This document shows positions 535 through 59,419 of a DNA stretch of 64,000 bases, piece after piece. This stretch comes from Prorocentrum cordatum (Eukaryota; Sar; Dinophyceae; Prorocentrales; Prorocentraceae). A program made the translations under genes and the position numbers. The DNA lies in contig CAUYUJ010000836.1 in the NCBI GenBank assembly GCA_963575745.1, positions 427,951 through 491,950 on the forward strand. The letters run 5' to 3'. A model generated the notes under the pieces. It saw nothing but the letters and a program-made list of their open reading frames with translations. It made no database searches and had not been told where the DNA came from. Position 1 is the first letter of the stretch; the number at the start of each line of letters is the position of its first letter.

Positions 535-1736
535 GTGTATACCTTCTCGTGTACGCGAGAGCCAGTCTCCAGCGTGGGACAAAACAAGGCGACCCATTCA
601 GCTCTTTGCTTTTCAACTCATTATTAGAAACTGCTTCCCGGAAGGTGCAGATCAAGTGGTTGCGACGTGGGTGCGGTATCCGCGTAAATTTCGCAGACGC
701 CCGGCTCACAAATCTACGATTTGTTGATGGCGTTCTTCTTTTTGGGACTTGCTTGACGTAACTGCAGCTCATGTTGCGGGAAGTACAGGACGAGGCCGCC
801 AAGGTTGGACTCGAGCTTCATCCAGATAACAATAAATCTTGCACAACCAGTTTCAACAACGGCCCTGAGCGAAACTAGAGTTTGCGTCCGGCCCCGACAT
901 GGAAGTATAATTCTTGCCACCCGGAGTTTCGCAAACATATCTTGGCAGGAAGTTCGCATACCAAGACCCTCGTACTAGTGAAGTGGAAAGCAGACTTTCG
1001 GCTGGTTGGCGTACATTCCATTCACTCAAGCATGAGCTTACTACTCGTACTTACCCATTACATGGCAGGATACGTTTGATTAGCGGCACGGTTACACCAA
1101 CAGTGCTGTATGGTTGTGCGTCGTAGGTTTTCACGAGTGAGTTGGGGAAACACCTGCGGCGAACACAGCGTCAAATGCTGCGGATGGTCTTGGGTGCTCC
1201 GCGACGACGACAGGAAACCGCATATAGAAAAATGTCGACCGGGCCAGGTTGCCAAGACCATGCCCCGACATCTGCGACAAGCAGTACCTTGAGCGATGCC
1301 TGCGCGCACGACACCGCGTTGATGGGAGGCGACCAACAATGCGAAAATGATCACTCCGTGCCCTGGGTCGACTGGATCAAGCGGACTACGCATAAGGTAC
1401 AGCGCTTGCTAGAGAAACGGAACATTGACGACTTGATCACCACCCGAAGAAACAGGAAATCGAGATGGGCGGCGCAAGCTGCATCTGATCGCCGTAAGTG
1501 GACCTAAAATGTCTTACTGTGGGAGCCCGCTCTGCACGCGGAATCCCGACAACGAGTGCGCGGAATCCCGACAACGAGTTCGCAAACAAGCGAGGCCAAA
1601 AACGCGATGGGTCGATGATGTGCGCAGGCGCGCGGAGCCATTGGTGTGCGCTGCTGGCGGGGCAGATGAGTGGGTCGACGTGGCCAGAACGCCTACATGG
1701 AATGAGCTGGAAACTAGTTTTGTACATCACGAGTGA
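535..1736 (+). pseudogene. 5'-truncated LINE remnant: reverse transcriptase second half plus C-terminal tail
   Basis: A decayed non-LTR retrotransposon fragment in at least four frame segments. RT motif B reads GTKQGDPFSSLLFNSLLE at 576-629. The catalytic box that should read like FADD or YADD is FVDGVLLF at 720-743, so one catalytic aspartate is Gly. A stop at 759-761 is followed in the same frame by the thumb-like stretch LREVQDEAAKVGLELHPDNN. The frame then shifts to YLGRKFAYQDPRTSEVESRL and GTVTPTVLYGCAS (about 930-1126). It shifts again to LRRTQRQMLRMVLGAPRRR (from about 1145) and PWVDWIKRTTHKVQRLLEKR (about 1360-1420). The last segment is ARPKTRWVDDVRRRA with WNELETSFVHHE, ending at the stop at 1736. 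This order is the usual C-terminal half of a class of LINE common in dinoflagellate genomes. Everything upstream of motif B is missing, as expected from 5' truncation during target-primed reverse transcription. It cannot encode a working enzyme. The exact 5' boundary is uncertain. Confidence 0.88.
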
Positions 1737-2340
1737 GGTTGTTCGCCGCGATGCCCCTGCCTGTCGCTTCAGATAATTTGTTCTTCAGGCGGTCCAGCCC
1801 CGCCCCGCTCAGCCCCCTCGCGTGGGCAGCGTTGCGGGCGCCGTCGCCGTCGCCGGCGAGAGCCAGTCTCCAGGGTTCCCCCTTGCAGCCCAGGCGACAA
1901 AGTAGCAGTTTTTGGGCCCTCGTTTCCCTGGGGCGCCCGTTTCTGCCCAGGGGGCCTCCGTGGCGACCCTGGAAGCGCCGCGGCGCGGTGTCAGCAGGGG
2001 CTCTCCAACAGGTGCTGATTGCCGCTTATTTGGTAGAGGGTGCCCCCTGGGAGGCTCCGCGTTTCGTTCAAGTTGTCCCGGGTCGGGCCGTCTAGAATTT
2101 CGGGGTAGCTCGGATCGCCCAACAATGTCTCTCCGCGGTTTGTCTGTCTTCAAGACGTTTTTATTCTGCGTATTATTCTTCCGCTGGGGTCTTTTTGGTG
2201 CTTTTCTTCGATTTGGTTGCTGCGCCTTTCTCAGTCAGTTTGGAAACGTGGCGCCCCAAAGCACAATATTTGGGATTCGTTGTGGGGCGCGGGGTCGCCC
2301 TTGGGACGTGGCGGGGGGGGGGGCGGAGAATGGGAATCCT
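1737..2340. other. GC-rich stretch, no recognised feature
   Basis: This lies directly downstream of the LINE stop. It has no poly-A tail or simple repeat that would mark the LINE 3' end. Open frames exist on both strands but show no recognisable motif. A run of 10 G at 2314-2323 is the only simple feature. Confidence 0.5.
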
Positions 2341-2342
2341 GT

Positions 2343-2636
2343 TGTATTGCGTAACAAAGAGAGCTCTTTTGTATTCAGCCACGCAAAGGATCCTTTTGTA
2401 TCCCGCCACGAAGGGAATCGAATCCCTTTGCGTTCCGCCACGAAGGGGGTCCCTCTGCATGCTGCTACGAAAGGATTTCCCTTGTATTCAGCCACGCAAG
2501 GAATTCATTTGTATGCCGCCACAAAGGGAACCTCTGCTCTGTGTATTCTGCAACAGAAGGAATCCTAGTGTATTCTGCTACAAACGGAGTCCTTGTGTAT
2601 TCTGCCACGAAAGGACCCCCTTGGCATTCCAGTGCA
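2343..2636 (+). repeat. 27-bp minisatellite array (left arm)
   Basis: About eleven degenerate units of roughly 27 bp. The core reads TTCNGCCACGAAAGGA followed by a short variable part and TTTGTAT. On the minus strand the period shows as a 9-residue repeat (FVAEYTRTP). The same family recurs in the opposite orientation at 3066-3330. Confidence 0.85.
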
Positions 2637-2639
2637 GAT

Positions 2640-3065
2640 GGGGATTGATTTGGCAGTTGACAAACCTGTGTTTCCACAGCGTTTTAATCGTTTTTGAGTG
2701 AACACATTAGTTCCGCCTGTGCCTGCACAGCGTTTGAGGGTTTATATTTATTGGCAGACGCATCGGGAAGATCATGTGTATTTATTTATATATATATATA
2801 TTAACAATCGCTTGTTGCGTGTACACATATGGAGAACATTAGATCTTCTATGTTCACTGGGCCTGGCCATGGGAAGCAACGAGCAACAGCTTCCACGTAA
2901 CATGCGCGACGACGCTGTGCAGACACATGCGGTTTCAGTATATACCATATTTATACATATATATATATACACATATATATGTGTATCTATATATATATAT
3001 AGCAGAAAGCTGTTAACACGCGGAGAAGACGCATGTCTCCAATTATTTCATCAATTTCAATGCGG
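2640..3065. other. AT-rich spacer with TA microsatellites
   Basis: This DNA separates two oppositely oriented copies of the 27-bp array. It is much more AT-rich than its surroundings. It has alternating TA tracts near 2784-2802 and 2941-3001. I recognise no coding content. Confidence 0.7.
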
Positions 3066-3330
3066 AGTGGCAGAATGCAAGGGGTTCCTTATGTGGCTGG
3101 CTACACCAGCCTTCTTCTGTTGCAGCATGCACGCGGTATCCCCTTGTGGCGGCATGCGAAGGAATTCTTTTTGTGGCTGAATATAAAAAGGAAGTCTTTG
3201 TGTAACTGAATGCAAAGGGGCTCCTTTTGTGGCGGGGCGCGCAGGGATTTCCTCTGTGGCGGGATGCACAAGGATTCCAATTGTGGCATGATACAAAGGG
3301 ATTCTCTCGGTGGCTGCGTAAGAAACGCAT
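3066..3330 (-). repeat. 27-bp minisatellite array (right arm, inverted)
   Basis: About nine to ten degenerate units with core GTGGCNGNATGCAAAGGGAT. This is the reverse complement of the unit at 2343-2636. Together the two arrays could pair as an imperfect foldback of about 270 bp per arm around the 430-bp AT-rich spacer. Confidence 0.82.
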
Positions 3331-3389
3331 CATTTTACGGAGCGAATCCATTGCGTGTTTTTTCTTAGTTTTTTTTGTTTTTGTTGAGA

Positions 3390-19463: not shown

Positions 19464-19880
19464 TCGGCGGCCAGCCCTGGGATTGAGCGAGAAGGAGAGG
19501 GCCTTCTCATCAGAAGGCTCGGAAGTCCCCGGGCCTTCTGAGAAGCCTCCTGAGCCTTCCCGTGACACGGAGAAATTGCCAGAGGACCCGCGAGCTGGGG
19601 GTATCTCAGAGCGGCCACACGTAAGAGCGATTTTTCGCCAGAGTGACCTTTGGTGCGGGAACACTGGTGTCCCGATCGCCGAACGCGACGCGAATGGGTT
19701 TTGCCCCCCCCCCTGCGGCCCCCCTAAAGCCGCGCACCAAAGGTCACTCTTGCGGCAAGAGTGACCTTTGGTCACTCTTGCGGCAAGTTGCCCAGGGCCA
19801 CTGGCGTGTAGCCGACGCGAAGCCCCGCCGCGTTCTGAGAAGGCTTCCTCATCCTCACTTCCTCCCCCGCTCGCCGCCGA
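19464..19880. mobile_element. Inverted-repeat element, TCGGCRG family, copy 1 (interrupted)
   Basis: The left end resembles TCGGCGGCCAG, then GAGCGAGAAGGAGAGGGCCT and TCTCATCAGAAGG. The right end (19846-19880) is the inverted form, with TTCTGAGAAGGCTTCC, CACTTCCTCCCCC and GCTCGCCGCCGA. The same ends bound 20501-20716 and 59219-59419. It is interrupted by a second inverted-repeat element near 19637-19790. No coding capacity, so it is MITE-like by structure. Confidence 0.6.
19637..19790. mobile_element. Nested small inverted-repeat element (AGAGTGACCTTTGGTGCG)
   Basis: AGAGTGACCTTTGGTGCG near 19641 is inverted as CGCACCAAAGGTCACTCT near 19732-19751. Directly after comes a near-palindrome, GGCAAGAGTGACC-TTT-GGTCACTCTTGC (about 19752-19785), made from the same end sequence. 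It sits inside the TCGGCRG-family copy, so it probably inserted later. Confidence 0.65.
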
Positions 19881-20500
19881 GCTCCCCGCTCGGTTCAGGG
19901 ATCAGGGGCAACGATGAGGGGATGAGGGGGGTACATACAGGCAAAAGGGTGCGGCGCATTGACCCCCAATGGCCCGTTCATGGCCCATCCCATTCATGCA
20001 TCGCCGATGCATCGCCGAGGTATCGGCGATGCGGCGCCATCCTGCGACCCCATCTACTCCGACTCCATCTACGAGGCCTCTACTCTTATTTCCCCTCCTC
20101 GCTCGCCGCCGAGCTTTCTGCGCTCGGCTTAGGAAGCAGGGGTAACAAGAAGGGGGGGTGACATGCACACGGGGGCGGCGCATCGACCCCCAGTGGCCCA
20201 TTCATCGCCGATGGTGTTAAGTCGGGTATGTCCCTCTGCAGGAGGATTATTCAAGAATCGTAATCACAGAGTATGGGGACGATTATTCGTGCTCTTGTGA
20301 TTGATGCCGATTATTGACTTCAAAAAACTCTTTCAAGATCCGCCTGTAGGAGGACATGCCCGACCTAGCGATAGCGTCTGGTGGGTCCGCCCAGCTCGGG
20401 AGCGTGCGGATTCACCATCAGAGGCCAATCGCCGATCTATCGGCGATGAATCGCCGATTCCAGGTCGATGTCCCCCACCTTATGCTAGTCCCCCCGTATC
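19881..20500. repeat. Dispersed repeat with ATCGCCGAT / ATCGGCGAT palindromes, copy 1
   Basis: It contains CAGGGGCAACGATGAGGGG, a GACCCCCAATGGCCC-type block repeated near 19960 and 20185, and several ATCGCCGAT and ATCGGCGAT palindromes. The clearest is ATCGCCGATCTATCGGCGAT at 20428-20447. A related sequence with the same order lies at 50535-50755. Confidence 0.65.
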
Positions 20501-20716
20501 TCGGCGGCGAGCGAGGGGGGGAAGTGAGAAGGAGAAGGCTTTCTCAGAAGGCGGCGGAACTTCTTTGAAGCCCTCGCGCGTTCTGAGAAGTTTTCCGTGT
20601 CTTCGGGGAAGGCTAAGAGCATTCCGCAGAAGGCCGGGGGCCTCTGAAACTTCTGAGAGGGCGCGCCCATTCAGGCGTGCCCCTTCCCACTTCTCCCCTC
20701 CCCCTGCTCGTCCGCA
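20501..20716. mobile_element. Inverted-repeat element, TCGGCRG family, copy 2
   Basis: Starts TCGGCGGCGAGCGAGGGGGG, then AAGTGAGAAGGAGAAGGC. It ends with the decayed inverted form (CCTTCCCACTTCTCCCCTCC, then CTGCTCGTCCGCAG). The interior has TTCTGAGAAG repeats. It abuts the spliced-leader relicts at 20711, and the last few bases overlap them, so the right boundary is uncertain. Confidence 0.55.
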
Positions 20717-20732
20717 GCCGTTCTGGCTCAAG
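20711..20732 (+). other. Relict dinoflagellate spliced leader (DinoSL), copy 1
   Basis: A 22-nt match to the DinoSL consensus at 19 of 22 positions. It differs at positions 5 (C for T), 10 (G for A) and 13 (C for T), and ends TGGCTCAAG exactly as the leader does. DinoSL is added by trans-splicing to dinoflagellate nuclear mRNAs. Its presence in genomic DNA marks reintegration of a reverse-transcribed, trans-spliced mRNA. Confidence 0.82.
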
Positions 20733-20754
20733 TCCGTGGCCATTTTTGCTCAGG
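20733..20754 (+). other. Relict dinoflagellate spliced leader (DinoSL), copy 2, in tandem
   Basis: It begins at the base after copy 1. It matches 19 of 22, differing at positions 6 (G for A), 15 (T for G) and 21 (G for A). Two abutting full-length leaders are the expected product of two rounds of trans-splicing and cDNA reintegration. A weak third match (about 11 of 18) may follow at 20756-20774 but is not claimed. Confidence 0.85.
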
Positions 20755-21137
20755 ATCTGACCTTCCTGGCCAGGGGGGAGCGGCGGCCCCCGCAGTGCAA
20801 CTCGGCTGCCGGGTCCGGCGCGTCTTTTTTTCTTTTGTTTTTCGGCAGGTGAGTTCCCGGAGGAGCATTACGTTTGCCCTGGGCTGTGCGCTGGTGGCAC
20901 CTTCGCAACCATTCGGGTATAGCCAGGACCCCAGGTAAGGAGTCGCGGTTAGCAGAAGGGCTCTGGAGCATTTAAATTGGCCAGAATCACTAAACCAGGT
21001 CTGCCGTAGTTGGTGTTTTTTTCGGGTGACGGCAGTTCGGGTTAGTGGGACGGGCGTGGGGTGCGTCCTCCAGTACACATCACTAAACCAGGTCCCACTA
21101 AACCCAGTTCTGCCAACGCCCGAACCATTCCCGAGTC

Positions 21138-22316
21138 ATGGCGATGCAGAGCAGCCCGACGGGCCACGGCTGGGGGGCGCGTCTTCAACAGGGGTCGCGC
21201 CCAGGCTGCTCTGCTGGAGGTGGAGGCTTACGTGGTGCTGAAGTCGTTCGCTCGTGTCCGTCTTCCGCCGGGGCAGTTGTTCGGGGGTTTCGGACAAGGT
21301 GGGAACGGGGGGGGGAGGACCACAATTTCACCCCCGACGTGGAAAGTGGGCTTGCACGCAATGCCCTTGCAGAAAGAGCGTGGCTTCCACGACCACCTGC
21401 CGGCACTGCGGGGCCCAGCGCTCCGACCCAGGAAAAGGCTTTCGTCCCCCGCCAGGGTTTTTGGTAACTCCCACAGCAAGCTCAGGGTGGTGGTGCTGGT
21501 GGTCAGCGTGGTCCTGTGCTTCTGGTTTTCAGCACTCAGGTCTGTCCTCCCACTGGACACTCCGGATCTCGCCGAAACTGGCTCACCCGTGCAGGCGATG
21601 CCGCGGCGGCCGATGAGTATACGAAGGTGTTGGAAGCAAGGCGCCTAAGCAGCCGTGAACAACCTATTCAGCAGCAGATCGCGAAAGCATTCAATGTTGC
21701 ACGTTCCGTTGAGGACAGATTGGGAAGAACGGTTTCTCGGGTTAAGGCATCACTGGATACTCAACGTGCCTTGGTCGGTCGGCCCCAGGCGGAATATCAG
21801 CAAGCTGACGATCTTCACAAGCAGTTGGTCACGCAATTACTTTCCCAGGTCGTTGAGAAGCTCATTGGCGAAAAGCTCGCTGTTTGGTCAGTTCGTTCAA
21901 TCCTGTTTGGTTCCATTGAAGAGATTCCGGCTTCCTGGGGGAATCTGGTTGGCGAAGCGGAGAGCAGACTCACGCTGTCTCAGGAGGACAAGGATGCCGC
22001 CGACCAACTCGCCACCCAGCTCAAGCAGGCCCTCAAGCAGGCGACCGAGACGTTGTTCTAGCAGGCAGTGGAGCAGGCGAACAAGGCAAAAAGGCAGAGC
22101 ACAAGGCTGCGCTGCAGAGGCTGCAGGCGAAGCGCAGGCGCACTGAGGGAGGTGCAGAGGCAAGCGTGGGTGGCGAGGCAGCCCGACTCTACCCAAGGTG
22201 TTTCTGCAGGTGCCTTTTTGGGGTGCGTCGGCGCCTGCGGAAGCAGCGGTCGCCACCTTTGCGCGCGAGAGAGCCGCGGACACGGAGAGGCCCAGGAGGC
22301 CCCGCAGCAGTCCTAA
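21138..22316 (+). pseudogene. Retroelement first ORF: RanBP2-type zinc finger plus coiled coil
   Basis: The zinc finger is at 21347-21409 and reads WACTQCPCRKSVASTTTCRH followed by C. This gives W-x-C-x2-C-x11-C-x2-C, the RanBP2 (C4) pattern. A frameshift follows. The frame at 21516-22061 then carries a helical, Gln/Ala/Leu-rich region, for example QQQIAKAFNVARSVEDRLGR and TQLKQALKQATETLF, ending at a stop. Another frame (22068-22316) continues with charged helix. Such zinc-finger and coiled-coil proteins commonly sit at the N-terminal side of dinoflagellate LINE genes and are presumed to bind RNA. That role is inferred from position. At least two frame changes make it a pseudogene. Confidence 0.7.
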
Positions 22317-22514: not shown

Positions 22515-22536
22515 AAGATAGCCATTTTTGCTCAAG
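22515..22536 (+). other. Relict dinoflagellate spliced leader (DinoSL), copy 3, 5'-eroded
   Basis: The 3' 18 nt (22519-22536) match DinoSL at 17 of 18 positions, reading TAGCCATTTTTGCTCAAG. The first four bases differ. Its only mismatch, T for G at leader position 15, is the same change as in copy 2. It is preceded by TGGTTCAAG, which resembles the 3' end of another leader (8 of 9), so a tandem relict is possible here too. Confidence 0.78.
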
Positions 22537-22962
22537 CCCCAAAACGGCCCCAAGAGTAATAACAAGAGCCCCACCTCACGTGCTACCGCACCGCACCCCT
22601 GCTCGTGCCCGGCCGCGATGTTCTGTTGCGATTGTGGAGGTAAGGTAGGAGAGTGCTCGTGCACGAGGTCCAGGAGCCGTGAGAGGCATGTCGTCAAGGC
22701 TGGGGCTGGGGCGTGCGAGCTGACCCTCACGAACATCGAGGGCTTGTTCAAGAAAGCGATGGAGGAGGAGAGGAAGGATATCAGAAAGACAATCCAGCAA
22801 GAGGTGTGGGCGATCAGTAAAGCTTTGAACGGGCGTATCGACGTTGTCGATAAGAAGGTCAATGCCGTAGAGCAGCGCACCGCCCAGCTCGAAGCCACGG
22901 TCGCTTCCTTCGAGACTCGGCTTGCGACCAGTCTTTCCAGCGGGACGGGAGGGCCGGCGTAG
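22528..22962 (+). pseudogene. Retroelement second ORF, N-terminal coiled-coil part
   Basis: An open frame of 144 codons. A Cys-rich start, MFCCDCGGKVGECSC at about 22618-22662, is followed by a long amphipathic helix containing IEGLFKKAMEEERKDIRKTI and VDKKVNAVEQRTAQLEATVA. A stop at 22960-22962 directly precedes an RRM-like segment in the same frame. The ATG at 22618 lies about 80 bp after leader relict copy 3 and is a plausible start. Coiled coils before an RRM-like domain are known in LINE ORF1-type proteins, where they mediate multimer formation. The role here is inferred. Confidence 0.6.
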
Positions 22963-23538
22963 GTGCCAGCACATGTCGATATCAAAGGTTTCTGCACGTG
23001 GGAGGAACGTAAGACCAATGGCATCAGCACGCCTGATGCGGCTACTTTGGTGACTACGCTGACCGGACTCTTGGGGGATGACCTCAAGCCTCACGTCGGC
23101 GACGTGCTGATTCGAGGCCAACGGGGGCACCAAGTCAGAGTTCCTATCGCCGATGGGCACGCGGCTCTCGTGGCAGATCTGAGGCGAAATGTCCGTGCTG
23201 GAGAGGCGAACTACTACAATGGTGATACTAAACTGTGGGCTCAAGCTCAACGCTCCCCCCCGGTCCAGAAGAAGTGCTCCATGACAGGGAAGGTCACATA
23301 TTGGGCGAATGCCAAAGTCCCGGGTTCGCACACGGTGCGAACGTTTTGGTCACCAGATTTTGCAGTCTACGCGGAGGGCGGGGACACGGCCATCTTGATC
23401 GCGACTATTTCGGAGCACGGGCCGGAGTGGGGCAGCGACGGCTTGAAGGGACTCCGCCGCGGCTCACCACCAGCTGCGCTGCTTCAGGCGCGGCCCGCAA
23501 TAGGACGCCTCCGGAGACTACATGCCATAATTCGTTGA
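22963..23538 (+). pseudogene. Retroelement RRM-like / nucleic-acid-binding segment
   Basis: In frame with the preceding coiled coil but separated by a TAG stop. It starts VPAHVDIKGFCTWEERKTNG and contains DDLKPHVGDVLIRGQRGHQV, KLWAQAQRSPPVQKKCSM and VRTFWSPDFAVYAEGGDTAI. Alternating beta and helix character, a WEERKTNG-like helix start and its position before the endonuclease fit the accessory nucleic-acid-binding domain seen in related dinoflagellate elements. I assign RRM-like only by pattern. It ends at a stop just before the endonuclease frame. Confidence 0.5.
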
Positions 23539-23551
23539 CACGTTCACCGCA

Positions 23552-24330
23552 ATGACTTGGAACATACGTCACAAGTCGCAGGGGCGCCTACATACTATTA
23601 CACAGGCTATGCAGGCTAAATCATTAGGGTCGGCTGTTGTATGTCTTCAGGAATGCATGGTGTGGGTGGACGGTCGTATTGTCAATGGTTTCGTCGTTTT
23701 CAACGACACTCGCAGGCAACCCAACGGGGGCATCACGAAGGGCGGCGACTGCGGCTTCCTCGTCCCCTTCCACCTGGTTCCGTACATCTCCGACGTTGTG
23801 CATGGCGCCAATTGGAGGGTGATCCTTGTACATAAAAGTCTAATCTTGTCCTCCCACTATCTCGATCTTCTTATTTCTGAGGATGGCGCCCCCTCACGTA
23901 TTCTTCACGACTCTCTTGCCTATGTGCAACGTTGTCGGTGTAGACGTCACGGGATTTTCTTGCCTTTGGTGGCGGGCTTCGACTCGAACGCTACTCTTGC
24001 AGGTTGCGTAGATGGAGCTCCTGGATCTACTGTGCGACCGAAAATGTGATCCCATTCAGTGGCTGTGGAACGTGTCGTGCTGACTTGGTTGCGATATCTG
24101 CATTTCGGGGCTCTCAATACTCTCGGTATTGCCCGCGATCCTGCTGATTTGTGGACGTGCGGGATCCGCCAGAACATGTCGAAGAGGTCGCAGATTGACT
24201 ACATGGCCACGTCTTGCAATCTCGATGGCGCGGCGCATGCTATCAGACACTTGCCTCCAGCATGGGTGAAAGGTTTTGATCATCGGCCGGTGATTGCTGA
24301 GCTATCGGGCACTGCCCCCCTGCTATGCCC
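23552..24330 (+). pseudogene. EEP (AP-type) endonuclease domain of the LINE
   Basis: One frame from 23552 shows the family motifs in order: TWNIRHKS (metal-binding Asn), VVCLQECMVW (catalytic Glu), AGFDSNAT (Asp/Asn), SQIDYMATS (Asp) and FDHRPVIAEL (Asp-His). This enzyme nicks target DNA to prime reverse transcription. An in-frame TGA at 24047-24049 interrupts it between the FDSNAT and IDYM motifs, and the frame continues unchanged beyond. Its length, about 260 codons, is normal for the domain. All key residues survive, so the inactivation is probably recent. Confidence 0.82.
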
Positions 24331-24685
24331 ACAGGCCCATGGGGAGATCTTTGTGCGGCTGGCCACCGGCCGACGACGTCGCATCATAATATTTCGAGAA
24401 GGCTTGCGTATCTCCTGGAATCCTTGTCTTCGTTGGGTGACTTGGAGGATCGATTGCGGCATCTTGTTTGGGCCGTTCAACGCGCGACGGGCCCGAGGTC
24501 TCCAGAGCCGCTTCCTGAAGACGAGCCTGCCAGCTCCGGCAACGCGCGCTTCGCCAGGCGGCTCGCCGTCAGCAGCCATCCAGCACCAGGCCTGCGCTTT
24601 GCGTCGAGAGCGGCTCAAGGAAAGCAGGCAACGAGCATAGCGGAAGCTGAAGACGCTGTCAAGCTGCCGGTCGCGCTGCTGCACG
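24331..24685 (+). pseudogene. Linker between endonuclease and reverse transcriptase
   Basis: Coding character is retained but in shifting frames. The stretch RGLQSRFLKTSLPAPATRAS at 24500-24560 and the basic stretch RRERLKESRQRA to the stop at 24640 suggest a charged, disordered linker. No catalytic motif. Confidence 0.4.
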
Positions 24686-26117
24686 TTGCCCACCTGCTTG
24701 CAGCTGGATGGGCGCCTGGCCGCCGCCCGAGAGCAGTGGCTGCAACATGCGTGCCAGCTTGGGCGCGCTCGCTTCTCCGACGCCGACAACGCCGCCCGCA
24801 AGCAGCTCGATCGGTTGCACACCTCAGTGGCAGTGCATCGCGACAATGTCATCGATGGCTCCGCCAAGACAGCGATCGAACTTTGGGGCGTCGTGCAGGC
24901 GAAGGCCGTGCTTCGACCTGGTTCCGGGCTGGGCCCCGACGGCGTTCCACCTGGAGTGTTCATTTCATTGCCGTGGACTGTTGTGTTGCACATTTGGGAA
25001 CTCTTCCGTACTCGCGCTTCTCTCGGGATTTCTGGGAATTCGGTATATCAGAAGATCGTCGAATTCATAGGCCTACCTAAGGAGAAGTTTATCACCGACT
25101 TCAGTGACCACCGCTGGAGTGGCAAAACAAGCGCGTTGCAAAGGTGGTATATGAGGTGTATGCGACCGCCCGCACTGAACCAACAACGCCCGAGCATTGC
25201 CCGGACGATCGGGTGTAAGAAGGGCTGCAGGCCGGAGCGCGTGTCAGGATTGATTCAACATTTGTTTCACTTCTGGCGCGTGGGGTATTCCTCTTCACTG
25301 CGCCGCCCAGGACGTTGCGACAGCTTTCGATTCGACGAAGCACGTCAGTATGTGCGACGCTTTGACGTCCCGGGGACTTCAATCTGGGCGCGTCGCGTCG
25401 CTCACGCGGGAACTCACTGGCGTCTCCGCGACCGCGCAGATCGCCGGCGCTGGCGTTGCAGAGAGCTTTCCGTACGCGCGGGGAGGTAAACAGGGCGCAG
25501 TAGAAACCCCAGACATTTGGAATTCCATCCTCGAGAACCTCATGGAACCGTTGATCGACGCATGGTTTTCCAGCGGTTTTTGCTTTCTCTCGGATGGAGC
25601 GGTGCGCACGCGCGTCATTTGGGACGACGACATATTTCTTTTGGCACCTCGCCGCGAACGCATCTGGGCCATGACAGAGGACTTTAGCGCCGCTCTAGTA
25701 CTGCGCGGGCTATTTTGGAAACCATCATCATTGCAGCATATAGCTGGTCCAGCTTCCGAGCGCAAGCGCTTGCCGGTTCTCGTCGACCAACAGAACGGAA
25801 GTAGCATGCAGGGGCGCTTGTGGATGGGCCCAGCGCCGCGCAATCCAGCATGGAGCACAGACCTGTCTCTTGCTTCTGGCTTTTATATTTCAAACGCCAG
25901 TGCGCCTTGTTGTCAGGGGCCCCTCTCAAGTCAAAGCTGGCGGCTTGGACGCGCGCGCCCTCCGCGTCTGCGGCCTCTGGATGTTCGACCTGGCATCTGG
26001 GCCAGAGTTTACTGCGACGGGCTCGCCCTTGGGAGTTGGGCCACGCGCGCCGTTTCCTCAAGCTCTGTCCGAGACCAGGCGAAGGCCGATCGAGCTACTT
26101 ACAGCGCACTGCAATGA
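24686..26117 (+). pseudogene. Reverse transcriptase domain of the LINE
   Basis: Two frames. The first (24686-25489) has the N-terminal region with VLRPGSGLGPDGVPPGVF, the usual fingers motif of LINE reverse transcriptases. A frame change near 25280 leads to the second frame. That frame carries motif A, QDVATAFDST at about 25308-25337; motif B, GGKQGAVETPDIWNSIL at 25482-25532; and catalytic motif C, IWDDDIFLL at 25617-25643. Both catalytic aspartates of motif C are present, although the box reads WDDD rather than FADD. The second frame is open to 26117. The domain copies element RNA into DNA at the nicked target. With the frame change it cannot be made as one protein. Confidence 0.85.
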
Positions 26118-27772: not shown

Positions 27773-27964
27773 ACTTGCTCATACACAGACTTACTCATAC
27801 TCAGACTTACTCATACTCATACCTACTCATACTCAGACTTACTCACACTCAGACATACTCATATACAGACTTATTCATACACAGACTTACTCATACACAG
27901 TAGTAGTCATACCCAGACGTACACATACACAGCCTTACTCATACACAGACTTACTCATACTCAG
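27773..27964 (+). repeat. 16-bp tandem repeat, 12 units
   Basis: Twelve consecutive 16-mers with consensus ACTTACTCATACTCAG and variants such as ACACAG and TATACAG at the end. The array is exactly in register from 27773 to 27964. A partial unit precedes it. The last CAG is shared with the start of the 152-bp repeat. Confidence 0.92.
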
Positions 27965-28430
27965 CACCCCTAAGGGGAGCCGCCAGGGGTGGTTGCACGG
28001 GCTCGTTCGCGGCCATTTTGTGGGGATGTCTCAGGCGGTTTGCCTGTTTCTGGGCCCAACATCCTTCGCTTGGAGAGCAGATTGTGAGGATGTCTCAGGC
28101 GGGGCGCTGGTTTCAGCACCCCTAAGGGGAGCCGCCAGGGGTGGTTGCACGGGCTCGTTCGCGGCCATTTTGTGGGGATGTCTCAGGCGGTTTGCCTGTT
28201 TCTGTGCCCAACATCCTTCGCTTTCGGAGCAGATTTGGAGGATGTCTCGAGCGAGGCGCTCATTTCAGCACCCCTAAGGGGAGCCGCCAGGGGTGGTTGC
28301 ACGGGCTCGTTCGCGGCCATTTTGTGGGGATGTCTCAGGCGGTTTGCTTGTTTCTGTGCCCAACATCCTTCGCTTTCGGAGCAGATTTGGAGGATGTCTC
28401 GAGCGAGGCGCTCATTTTCACACCCCAGGT
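27962..28430 (+). repeat. 152-bp tandem repeat, three units plus a decayed fourth
   Basis: Units start with CAGCACCCCTAAGGGGAGCC at 27962, 28114 and 28266, all 152 bp apart. A diverged start follows near 28418. Each unit holds the hairpin CCCC-TAA-GGGG, the block CGCGGCCATTTTGTGGGGAT and two ATGTCTC boxes. Two more units of the same kind lie at 29017 and 29169 because of the 903-bp duplication. Confidence 0.9.
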
Positions 28431-28971: not shown

Positions 28972-29874
28972 CTTGGAGAGCAGATTGTGAGGATGTCTCA
29001 GGCGGGGCGCTGGTTTCAGCACCCCTAAGGGGAGCCGCCAGGGGTGGTTGCACGGGCTCGTTCGCGGCCATTTTATGGGGATGTCTCAGGCGGTTTGCAT
29101 GTTTCTGTGCCCAACATCCTTCGCTTTCGGAGCAGATTTGGAGGATGTCTCGAGCGAGGCGCTCATTTCAGCACCCCTAAGGGGAGCCGCCAGGGGTGGT
29201 TGCACGGGCTCGTTCGCGGCCATTTTGTGGGGATGTCTCAGGCGGTTTGCTTGTTTCTGGGCCCAACATCCTTCGCTTTCGGAGCAGATTTGGAGGATGT
29301 CTCGAGCGAGGCGCTCATTTTCACCCCCCAGGTGGGCCAGATTTTGAGGATGTCTCGATCGGTTTGCTTGTTTTGGTGGCCAGGCTCGTGGGCGCAGATT
29401 CTTCTCAGGATGCCACAGGAGGCTCCAACAGGCTCCAGGAGGCCCCAGGAGACCACATGAGGTCCCAGGAGGCATCAGGAGGCCACAGAAAGACTCAAGA
29501 GGCCACAGGATGTCCCAAGAGGCTCCAGGAGGCCCCAGGAAGCTCCAGAAGGCCTCAGGAAACCACAGGAGACCCCAGGAGGCAACAGGAAGCGCCAGGA
29601 GGCCTCGGAAGGCAACAGGAGGCCCCGAGAGGCCCCAGGAGCAGGAGGCCTCAGAAGGCAACAGGAGTGGCTCCAATCCCATGTGTTTTACGTATGCTCC
29701 TATCGATTGGGCCTCACCTGGAGCACGATTCTTTGATGTTCTACGTATGTTTCTATAGATGGTCCTTCTCCTGTGTACACAATCCTAAATGTTTTACTCA
29801 TGTTCCTATGTATTGGGCCTCTCCTGGGGCACGAGTCCTTGGTGTTTTACGCGTGTTCCTATAGATTGCCCTTC
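28972..29874 (+). repeat. 903-bp tandem duplication, right copy
   Basis: Differs from the left copy at only a few bases seen by eye, for example TTTTATGGGG for TTTTGTGGGG near 29070 and an inserted CA near 29797. Such high identity beside strongly decayed repeats points to a recent event or an assembly duplication. Confidence 0.92.
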
Positions 29875-50534: not shown

Positions 50535-50755
50535 GTGACCAGGTGGGGGGTCATCAGGGGCAACGATATGGGCACAAGGGGGGGAATGCATCGATCCCCA
50601 ATCGCCGCCCATTGATTGATCGCCGATAGGGTCCCGCTAGCCCCCACCTGCCCAGGAACGTAGGCATTCACCATCGGGGGCCTATCGCCGATCTATCGGC
50701 GAGTATCGCTGGTTCCAGGTCGAGGTTTCCCGCCCGCCCTATGCCCAATCCTCCC
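50535..50755. repeat. Dispersed ATCGCCGAT/ATCGGCGAT repeat, copy 2
   Basis: Same block order as within 19881-20500: CAGGGGCAACGAT, GATCCCCAATCGCCG, CATTCACCATCGGGGGCC, ATCGCCGATCTATCGGCGA, then GGTTCCAGGTCGAGG. Confidence 0.72.
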
Positions 50756-59146: not shown

Positions 59147-59218
59147 GGCCCCTTCACAAGCGTTGGCGGTGGCAGCGTGCTGCTGCACAGTGCGGTCCTG
59201 GGCTGGGTCCGAGCAGTC

Positions 59219-59419
59219 TCGGCAGTGAGCGAGGGGGGAAGTGAGAAGGAGAAGGCCTTCTCAGAAGGTTCGGGAGTCCCCCTGGCCTTCCGAGAAGTTT
59301 TCTAGGCCTGTCTCGAAGAGCAACACAATATTCTCATAAGGCGCGAGGGCTTCTGAGAATCGCCGCCGCCTTCTGAGAAGGCCTTCTCCTTCTCGTCCCC
59401 CCCCCTCGCTCGCTGCCGA
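59219..59419. mobile_element. Inverted-repeat element, TCGGCRG family, copy 3 (intact ends)
   Basis: The left end is TCGGCAGTGAGCGAGGGGGG, then AAGTGAGAAGGAGAAGGCCT and TCTCAGAAGG. The right end is the inverse: CCTTCTGAGAAGGCCTTCTC, CTTCTCGTCCCCCC, TCGCTCGCTGCCGA. Arms are about 50 bp, with a 2-3-bp gap and one or two mismatches. The element is about 201 bp with no coding capacity. It is the cleanest of the three copies. Confidence 0.8.

Follow-up and report, generated by a model that had tools for sequence, protein, structure and literature searches.

The locus described here raises the question of how two copies of the dinoflagellate spliced leader (DinoSL), standing head to tail in genomic DNA of the bloom-forming dinoflagellate Prorocentrum cordatum, came to be there, and whether they record one round of message recycling or two. 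Slamovits and Keeling are said to have described DinoSL relicts of recycled cDNAs in 2008. The original prediction read the two units as such relicts, as the outcome of at least two cycles of trans-splicing and reintegration, and as the head of a LINE whose transcript may have been the recycled message. These claims were followed in the whole stretch of 64,000 nucleotides (the window), whose features are given in Table 1.

Table 1. Features of the window around the DinoSL relict dimer; positions are counted from the first letter of the window.
Feature	Positions	Strand	Remarks
Terminal-inverted-repeat element (MITE or introner-like)	20501..20710	+	Lacks its last 7 nt at the start of copy 1
Further ends of the inverted-repeat family	19880(-), 20112(-), 59219(+), 59419(-)		
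Pyrimidine-rich tract	20690..20717	+	88% of 25 nt; ends in CAG of copy 1; candidate trans-splice acceptor
DinoSL relict copy 1	20711..20732	+	22 nt; mismatches T5C, A10G, T13C; internal AG retained as CAG
DinoSL relict copy 2	20733..20754	+	22 nt; mismatches A6G, G15T, A21G; without internal AG acceptor (GTGG)
Coding exon 1, P0005 gene	21138..21225	+	ATG is the first after the dimer, 383 nt downstream
Intron, P0005 gene	21226..21594	+	Same protein under all four border placements; GC-AG chosen
Coding exon 2, P0005 gene	21595..22061	+	TAG stop
Third DinoSL relict (relict 3)	22519..22536	+	Leader positions 5-22; 17/18 matches; precedes the LINE-like unit
LINE ORF1-like frame	22618..22962	+	Cys-rich start, coiled coil; in frame past TAG to 23538
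Endonuclease region, LINE-like unit	23531..24640	+	Weak Exo_endo_phos match; one in-frame TGA
Reverse transcriptase region, LINE-like unit	25254..26117	+	Weak RVT_1 match; 53%-identical ENA protein

The two units are spliced-leader relicts. Each differs from TCCGTAGCCATTTTGGCTCAAG at three positions, which do not overlap between the copies, and no gap separates them; the coordinates, the 19 of 22 matches, the differing mismatches and the gapless contact were all reproduced as predicted. No other site in the 64-kb window, on either strand, comes within three mismatches of DinoSL. An equal frequency of relict-like 22-mers in shuffled sequence had been named as the outcome that would speak against this identity; within the window, 100 dinucleotide shuffles contained no site at up to three mismatches. 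Likewise, exact Markov models of orders 1 to 4 predict only 0.0008 to 0.0014 such sites on the two strands of 64 kb, and only 4 of 3000 permuted leaders found one. The mismatch sum of the abutting pair is 6 for the real leader and was never below 12 among 3000 permuted leaders. A search of the window against Rfam gave no match at gathering scores.

The dimer very likely consists of two full-length units in tandem. As no mismatch is common to both copies, each appears to have decayed separately from a near-perfect leader. Five of the six changes are A-to-G or T-to-C and may be fossil RNA edits, for which six changes are too few to tell. We file the dimer as a DinoSL relict of atypical arrangement. 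The class requires just similarity, a dinoflagellate host and an upstream, same-sense position: the similarity to DCCGTAGCCATTTTGGCTCAAG is above chance, one protein encoded in the window is on record for Prorocentrum cordatum, and the dimer and relict 3 lie 5' of the ATGs at 21138 and 22618 (383 and 81 nt, respectively), in the same sense as the frames that follow. The truncation of inner tandem units after nucleotide 7, which is usual in transcripts, is not seen here. Additional decayed leader units are not claimed, since the better scores depend on ends selected by hand. The sequence just after copy 2 has a leader score of 1, which is equalled by 3.9% of 6000 random positions; an end at 20774, chosen by eye, raises the score to 3 with the full leader and to 4 with the 15-nt one, values that 0.95% and 0.53% of random positions attain, and a hand-picked end before relict 3, at 22517, scores 4 and 3 (0.57% and 1.5%).

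What follows the dimer is not a LINE, as had been supposed, but a two-exon gene (21138-22061) for an annotated P. cordatum protein. This unnamed protein of 184 aa (P0005) was the sole match to the open reading frame 21468-22061 in a protein search (1 of 684 candidates), and the BLAST alignment is identical from the EYTKV motif through the C-terminus. The exon that starts at 21138 supplies residues 1 to 29 and part of residue 30, and the second exon the remainder; removal of the intron yields a product of 184 residues which shares the first 49 residues and the end of P0005. No ATG lies between the dimer and this start. The same search of 684 candidates returned just P0005's own record and thus no parent gene, and no recognisable domain was found in the protein. 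The motif CACTAAACC, which we take to resemble a branch-point sequence, has three copies in the window, counted on both strands, and all of them lie between dimer and gene (20988, 21081 and 21096); they may point to introns in the 5' UTR of the gene. We chose the GC-AG border for the coding intron because 51.4% of the donors in the P. cordatum genome are GC (PMC10666404). The same study excluded transcript-based gene models with transposable elements before its later steps (PMC10666404), a filter which weakly suggests that P0005 is unlikely to be a recognised element. The mean G+C content of the window, about 59%, agrees with the published value of 59.7% for P. cordatum (PMC10666404). From the protein match, the DNA belongs to P. 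cordatum or to a nearly identical organism.

The LINE-like element begins about 1.8 kb downstream of the dimer, beyond the annotated gene, and is headed by a separate relict, which the original prediction overlooked. Once the dimer is set aside, this is the best DinoSL site of the window: over 22515-22536 it departs from the 21 defined letters 4 times, with 3 of these mismatches within positions 2 to 4, and among 3000 permuted 18-mers not one matched anywhere as well as the leader does at 22519-22536. Its distance of 81 nt to the next ATG, the start of ORF1, fits the usual 5' UTR length of 50 to 100 nt given in a review (PMC6050394). The TAG of relict 3 is without a pyrimidine tract (44% pyrimidines), and its G15T is common to copy 2, which may be coincidence or point to a variant leader. 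The suggested recycling of a retroelement message therefore suits relict 3, placed before a LINE-like unit, better than the dimer, placed before an annotated gene.

The frames of the LINE-like unit are open to direct observation, and their domain matches are weak. The ORF1-like frame from 22618 has 114 residues, with a weak resemblance to a coiled coil. The order of ORF1, endonuclease and reverse transcriptase corresponds to that of an APE-type LINE, and motifs such as DHRPV are associated with the endonuclease and reverse transcriptase domains of this type. The matches to Exo_endo_phos (E 0.00038) and RVT_1 (E 0.004) are both below the Pfam cut-offs, and a translation of the endonuclease frame across its TGA matched no better (E 0.0013). 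Over 77% of the reverse transcriptase region, one ENA protein (1 of 5083 candidates) is 53% identical, and its own match to RVT_1 is likewise weak. Neither homologues of the endonuclease frame (0 of 36 candidates) nor relatives of the reverse transcriptase region in viral contigs (0 of 41 stretches) were found; solved structures gave unrelated matches only (E 0.87 and 0.36), and the predicted structure of the region, with a mean pLDDT of 29.7, was unusable. Since stops and frameshifts break its frames, this copy looks dead, to judge from its sequence.

We interpret the locus as two consecutive units, in the same orientation, of reverse-transcribed and SL-tagged messages, with two-step trans-splicing and reintegration for the dimer and a LINE message as the origin of the second unit, and give this reading a probability of roughly 0.6. 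The first unit would comprise the dimer and the small two-exon gene, to whose message the dimer would belong, and the second relict 3 and the degenerate LINE-like element. A pre-mRNA would have gained DinoSL by trans-splicing and, after reverse transcription and reintegration, left copy 2; a later transcript of this earlier locus would then have been trans-spliced at an AG just 5' of the relict, placing copy 1 ahead of the intact old leader, and the two-leader message would have been reintegrated in turn. The acceptor AG supposedly used would have lain at the earlier locus, out of sight of the window. In the second unit, a trans-spliced LINE message would have returned to the genome nearly complete at the 5' end. 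A LINE enzyme is the putative copier.

The recycling of messages is favoured by the position of the relicts, as the first ATG after the dimer is the start of the gene and the first after relict 3 is the start of ORF1. Against it stand the distance of 383 nt from dimer to ATG, which exceeds the usual length, and the intron of the gene; the equal number of mismatches in both copies (3 and 3) speaks against copy 2 being the older one. The missing AG at positions 6-7 of copy 2 would fit its escape from truncation. By a hand calculation, three random changes would hit position 6 or 7 about one time in four, and A6G may have arisen after integration and would then explain nothing, so that this change is only suggestive as the cause. 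An 11-bp repeat, CCCCTGCTCGT, at the boundary (20701 and 22596) was a candidate target-site duplication but was not accepted as one, as it is expected by chance with P 0.11; none was found for the first unit, and nothing beyond chance for the second.

The atypical part of the dimer is its inner unit. Tandem relicts are reported to be truncated after nucleotide 7 at the AG acceptor, with decay growing downstream (PMC3229502), and a survey of 2025, which reports two or more relicts in 5% of its retrogenes, searched transcriptomes for a 37-nt DinoSL-DinoRL tandem of 22+15 nt (PMC12014239). The period of the present dimer is 22 (22+22), in contrast to these published transcript tandems. A single full-length relict in DNA is to be expected, since genomic relicts, unlike transcript relicts, contain CCGTAG according to one report (PMC6616646) and a leader copy with 21 of 22 matches is described in genomic DNA at an Amphidinium gene (PMC2488372). 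It is the inner unit, therefore, that the standard account would have truncated. Of the predicted minimum of two cycles we retain that two are possible and rank them, not firmly, above a single double-leader event; the number is unsecured, because the spacing is 22+22 rather than 22+15 and both units could come at once from a tandem-SL gene.

Such a single delivery, in which a tandem-SL RNA gene provides a double leader in one trans-splicing event followed by one reintegration, is unlikely, though the best placed of the alternatives. In Fugacium, tandem-SL genes composed of two and of three units have been described in a report that proposes an origin of tandem relicts in one event (PMC6616646), and the equal decay of both copies would fit their simultaneous arrival. 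The relict units in that report are, however, 17-nt AGCCATTTTGGCTCAAG and not full 22-mers (PMC6616646).

Quite unlikely, too, is the duplication of a single relict in the DNA itself, by slippage or unequal exchange soon after integration. An exact, gapless head-to-tail layout of 22 nt is what a tandem duplication produces, but the event would have had to take exactly the leader with zero flanking bases, and the lack of any common mismatch requires that it predate the decay.

A further alternative concerns the left border of the dimer, where the inverted-repeat element adjoins copy 1. The latter could be a standard truncated relict of 15 nt (CCGTTCTGGCTCAAG), and its first 7 nt, ending in CAG, could come from the element, which would thereby supply the acceptor. 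The last 15 nt do match the published truncated form with two mismatches, and extending the inverted-repeat alignment into the first 7 nt raises its score from 11 to 16. Yet 17.75% of 4000 random 7-mers from the window extend the inverted repeat equally well (P 0.18), whereas only 0.28% of 200000 match the leader as well (5 of 6 defined letters; P 0.0028). The first 7 nt are thus better explained by the leader than by the inverted repeat, copy 1 is most likely full-length, and we consider a truncated copy 1 improbable.

The upstream element is one of several related short elements that have the inverted repeats TCGGCGGCGAGCGAGG... and lie at 19819-19880, 20084-20112, 20501-20710 and 59217-59419, the last of which has a candidate AGACTG duplication. 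A 70-bp stretch just 5' of the element (20410-20479) recurs 30 kb off at 50666-50734 with 84% identity; because of this match, 50666-50734 was rejected as a copy of the element itself. The AG of copy 1 owes a strong acceptor context to the pyrimidine-rich end of the element; it sits 43 nt past the preceding AG, and only 7 of the 3809 AGs of the window combine at least 88% pyrimidines in 25 nt with at least 43 nt to the previous AG. A present-day transcript could conceivably be joined at this CAG. As dinoflagellate acceptors have no simple consensus beyond AG (PMC2488372), the tract is not proof of an acceptor.

Very improbable is the derivation of the dimer from a decayed cluster of SL RNA genes (SL-like pseudo-genes) rather than from a retroposed message. 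Fugacium does have SL-like loci with several units and without a donor site (PMC6616646), and 23.8% of the donors in P. cordatum are GA (PMC10666404); copy 2 with the next bases reads CTCAG followed by GATCTG. Against this origin, a gene lies downstream of the dimer, and no GT or GC donor directly follows either leader (TCCG after copy 1, ATCT after copy 2), for which reason an SL RNA gene was rejected. By contrast, a contig assigned to a Dehalococcoidia genome bin has an exact leader (L003:4334-4354) with GTACG directly behind it, which is the arrangement of an SL RNA gene; this contig is probably a dinoflagellate contaminant.

A chance resemblance in a GC-rich, repeat-rich window is practically negligible: the GGCC(A/G)TCTTGG tandem repeats, abundant in the window, do bear a likeness to the leader core, but they yield no site at up to three mismatches, the expectation is about 0.001, and the permuted leaders speak against it as well. 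For the same reason the dimer was rejected as a by-product of the GGCCGTCTTGG tandem repeats. Tandem repeats of 152 bp at 27961-28426 and 28978-29320 (94-95% matches) likewise contain a motif resembling the leader core, GCGGCCATTTT.

Leader sequences were also encountered in other contigs. The 7157-base contig L001 of a viral collection (IMGVR_UViG_3300045993_001077) contains, at 1780-2920, an island of 48-50% G+C (windows 1850-2749), and the G+C content at both ends of the 1400-3349 profile is 12-27%. An exact DinoSL 21-mer lies on the minus strand at 2746-2766, 45 nt before the ATG of a frame of 254 residues; the frame is followed by a GGGAAAAAATAA stretch, and a second exact DinoSL is found at 2893-2913. 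Unless the contig is chimeric, the island may represent a message of dinoflagellate origin that was copied into a giant-virus-like genome. An exact leader after a TCA repeat stands at the extreme end of another contig of a Dehalococcoidia bin (L002:32-52), a possible chimera, in which the other long frames are bacterial-looking by eye. Perfect 22+22 or 15+15 leader dimers were not found in the viral contigs.

The enzyme behind mRNA recycling in dinoflagellates was called unknown in a review of 2018, which leaned to LTR elements (PMC6050394), and, in the case of endogenous viral elements, a study of 2023 points to LINEs (PMC10235124). If the LINE family found here regularly carries DinoSL before ORF1, its messages are trans-spliced and copied back, which would make LINEs good candidates for the recycling. 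Going further, we suggest, as a tentative and rather doubtful generalisation, that dinoflagellate LINEs are themselves trans-spliced, each new full-length copy bringing a leader relict and an acceptor before ORF1, so that the leader would serve as a reusable 5' end; the same machinery would explain the frequent recycling of host messages, and full-length dimers would mark messages in which the loss of the internal AG stopped truncation. A 22+22 dimer without an internal AG thus offers a testable rule for when relicts remain full-length, and it warns that the count of relicts does not simply equal the count of cycles.

Compared with known systems, the second unit is like the APE-type LINEs, which we take to be its type, in the order of ORF1-like frame, endonuclease and reverse transcriptase, here broken by stops and frameshifts; it differs from them by the DinoSL relict directly before ORF1. 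Among the titles and abstract openings of the matches listed, no report of a DinoSL relict heading a LINE was found. The nearest concerns Symbiodiniaceae, where 6 of 26 endogenous viral frames have a leader relict no more than 500 bp away and LINE sequences occur close to some of these (PMC10235124). The element upstream of the dimer resembles the introner elements reported for P. cordatum (PMC10666404) in its terminal inverted repeats, its purine-rich and pyrimidine-rich ends and its several copies in the window. With the tandem-SL and SL-like genes of Fugacium kawagutii (PMC6616646) the dimer shares at least two head-to-tail leader units in genomic DNA; those loci, however, are SL RNA genes with GU or GC donors or pseudo-SL genes with 17-nt units, whereas here there is no GT or GC donor and a gene lies downstream. 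Relicts that DinoSL left in recycled cDNAs (Jaeckisch et al. 2011, PMC3229502; Song et al. 2018, PMC6050394) are like the dimer in their worn, same-sense 22-nt leaders before genes, their tandems and their differing mismatches. In the published transcript tandems, a full leader is followed by relicts cut after nucleotide 7, with decay rising downstream, whereas both units of the present dimer have 22 nt and are equally decayed.
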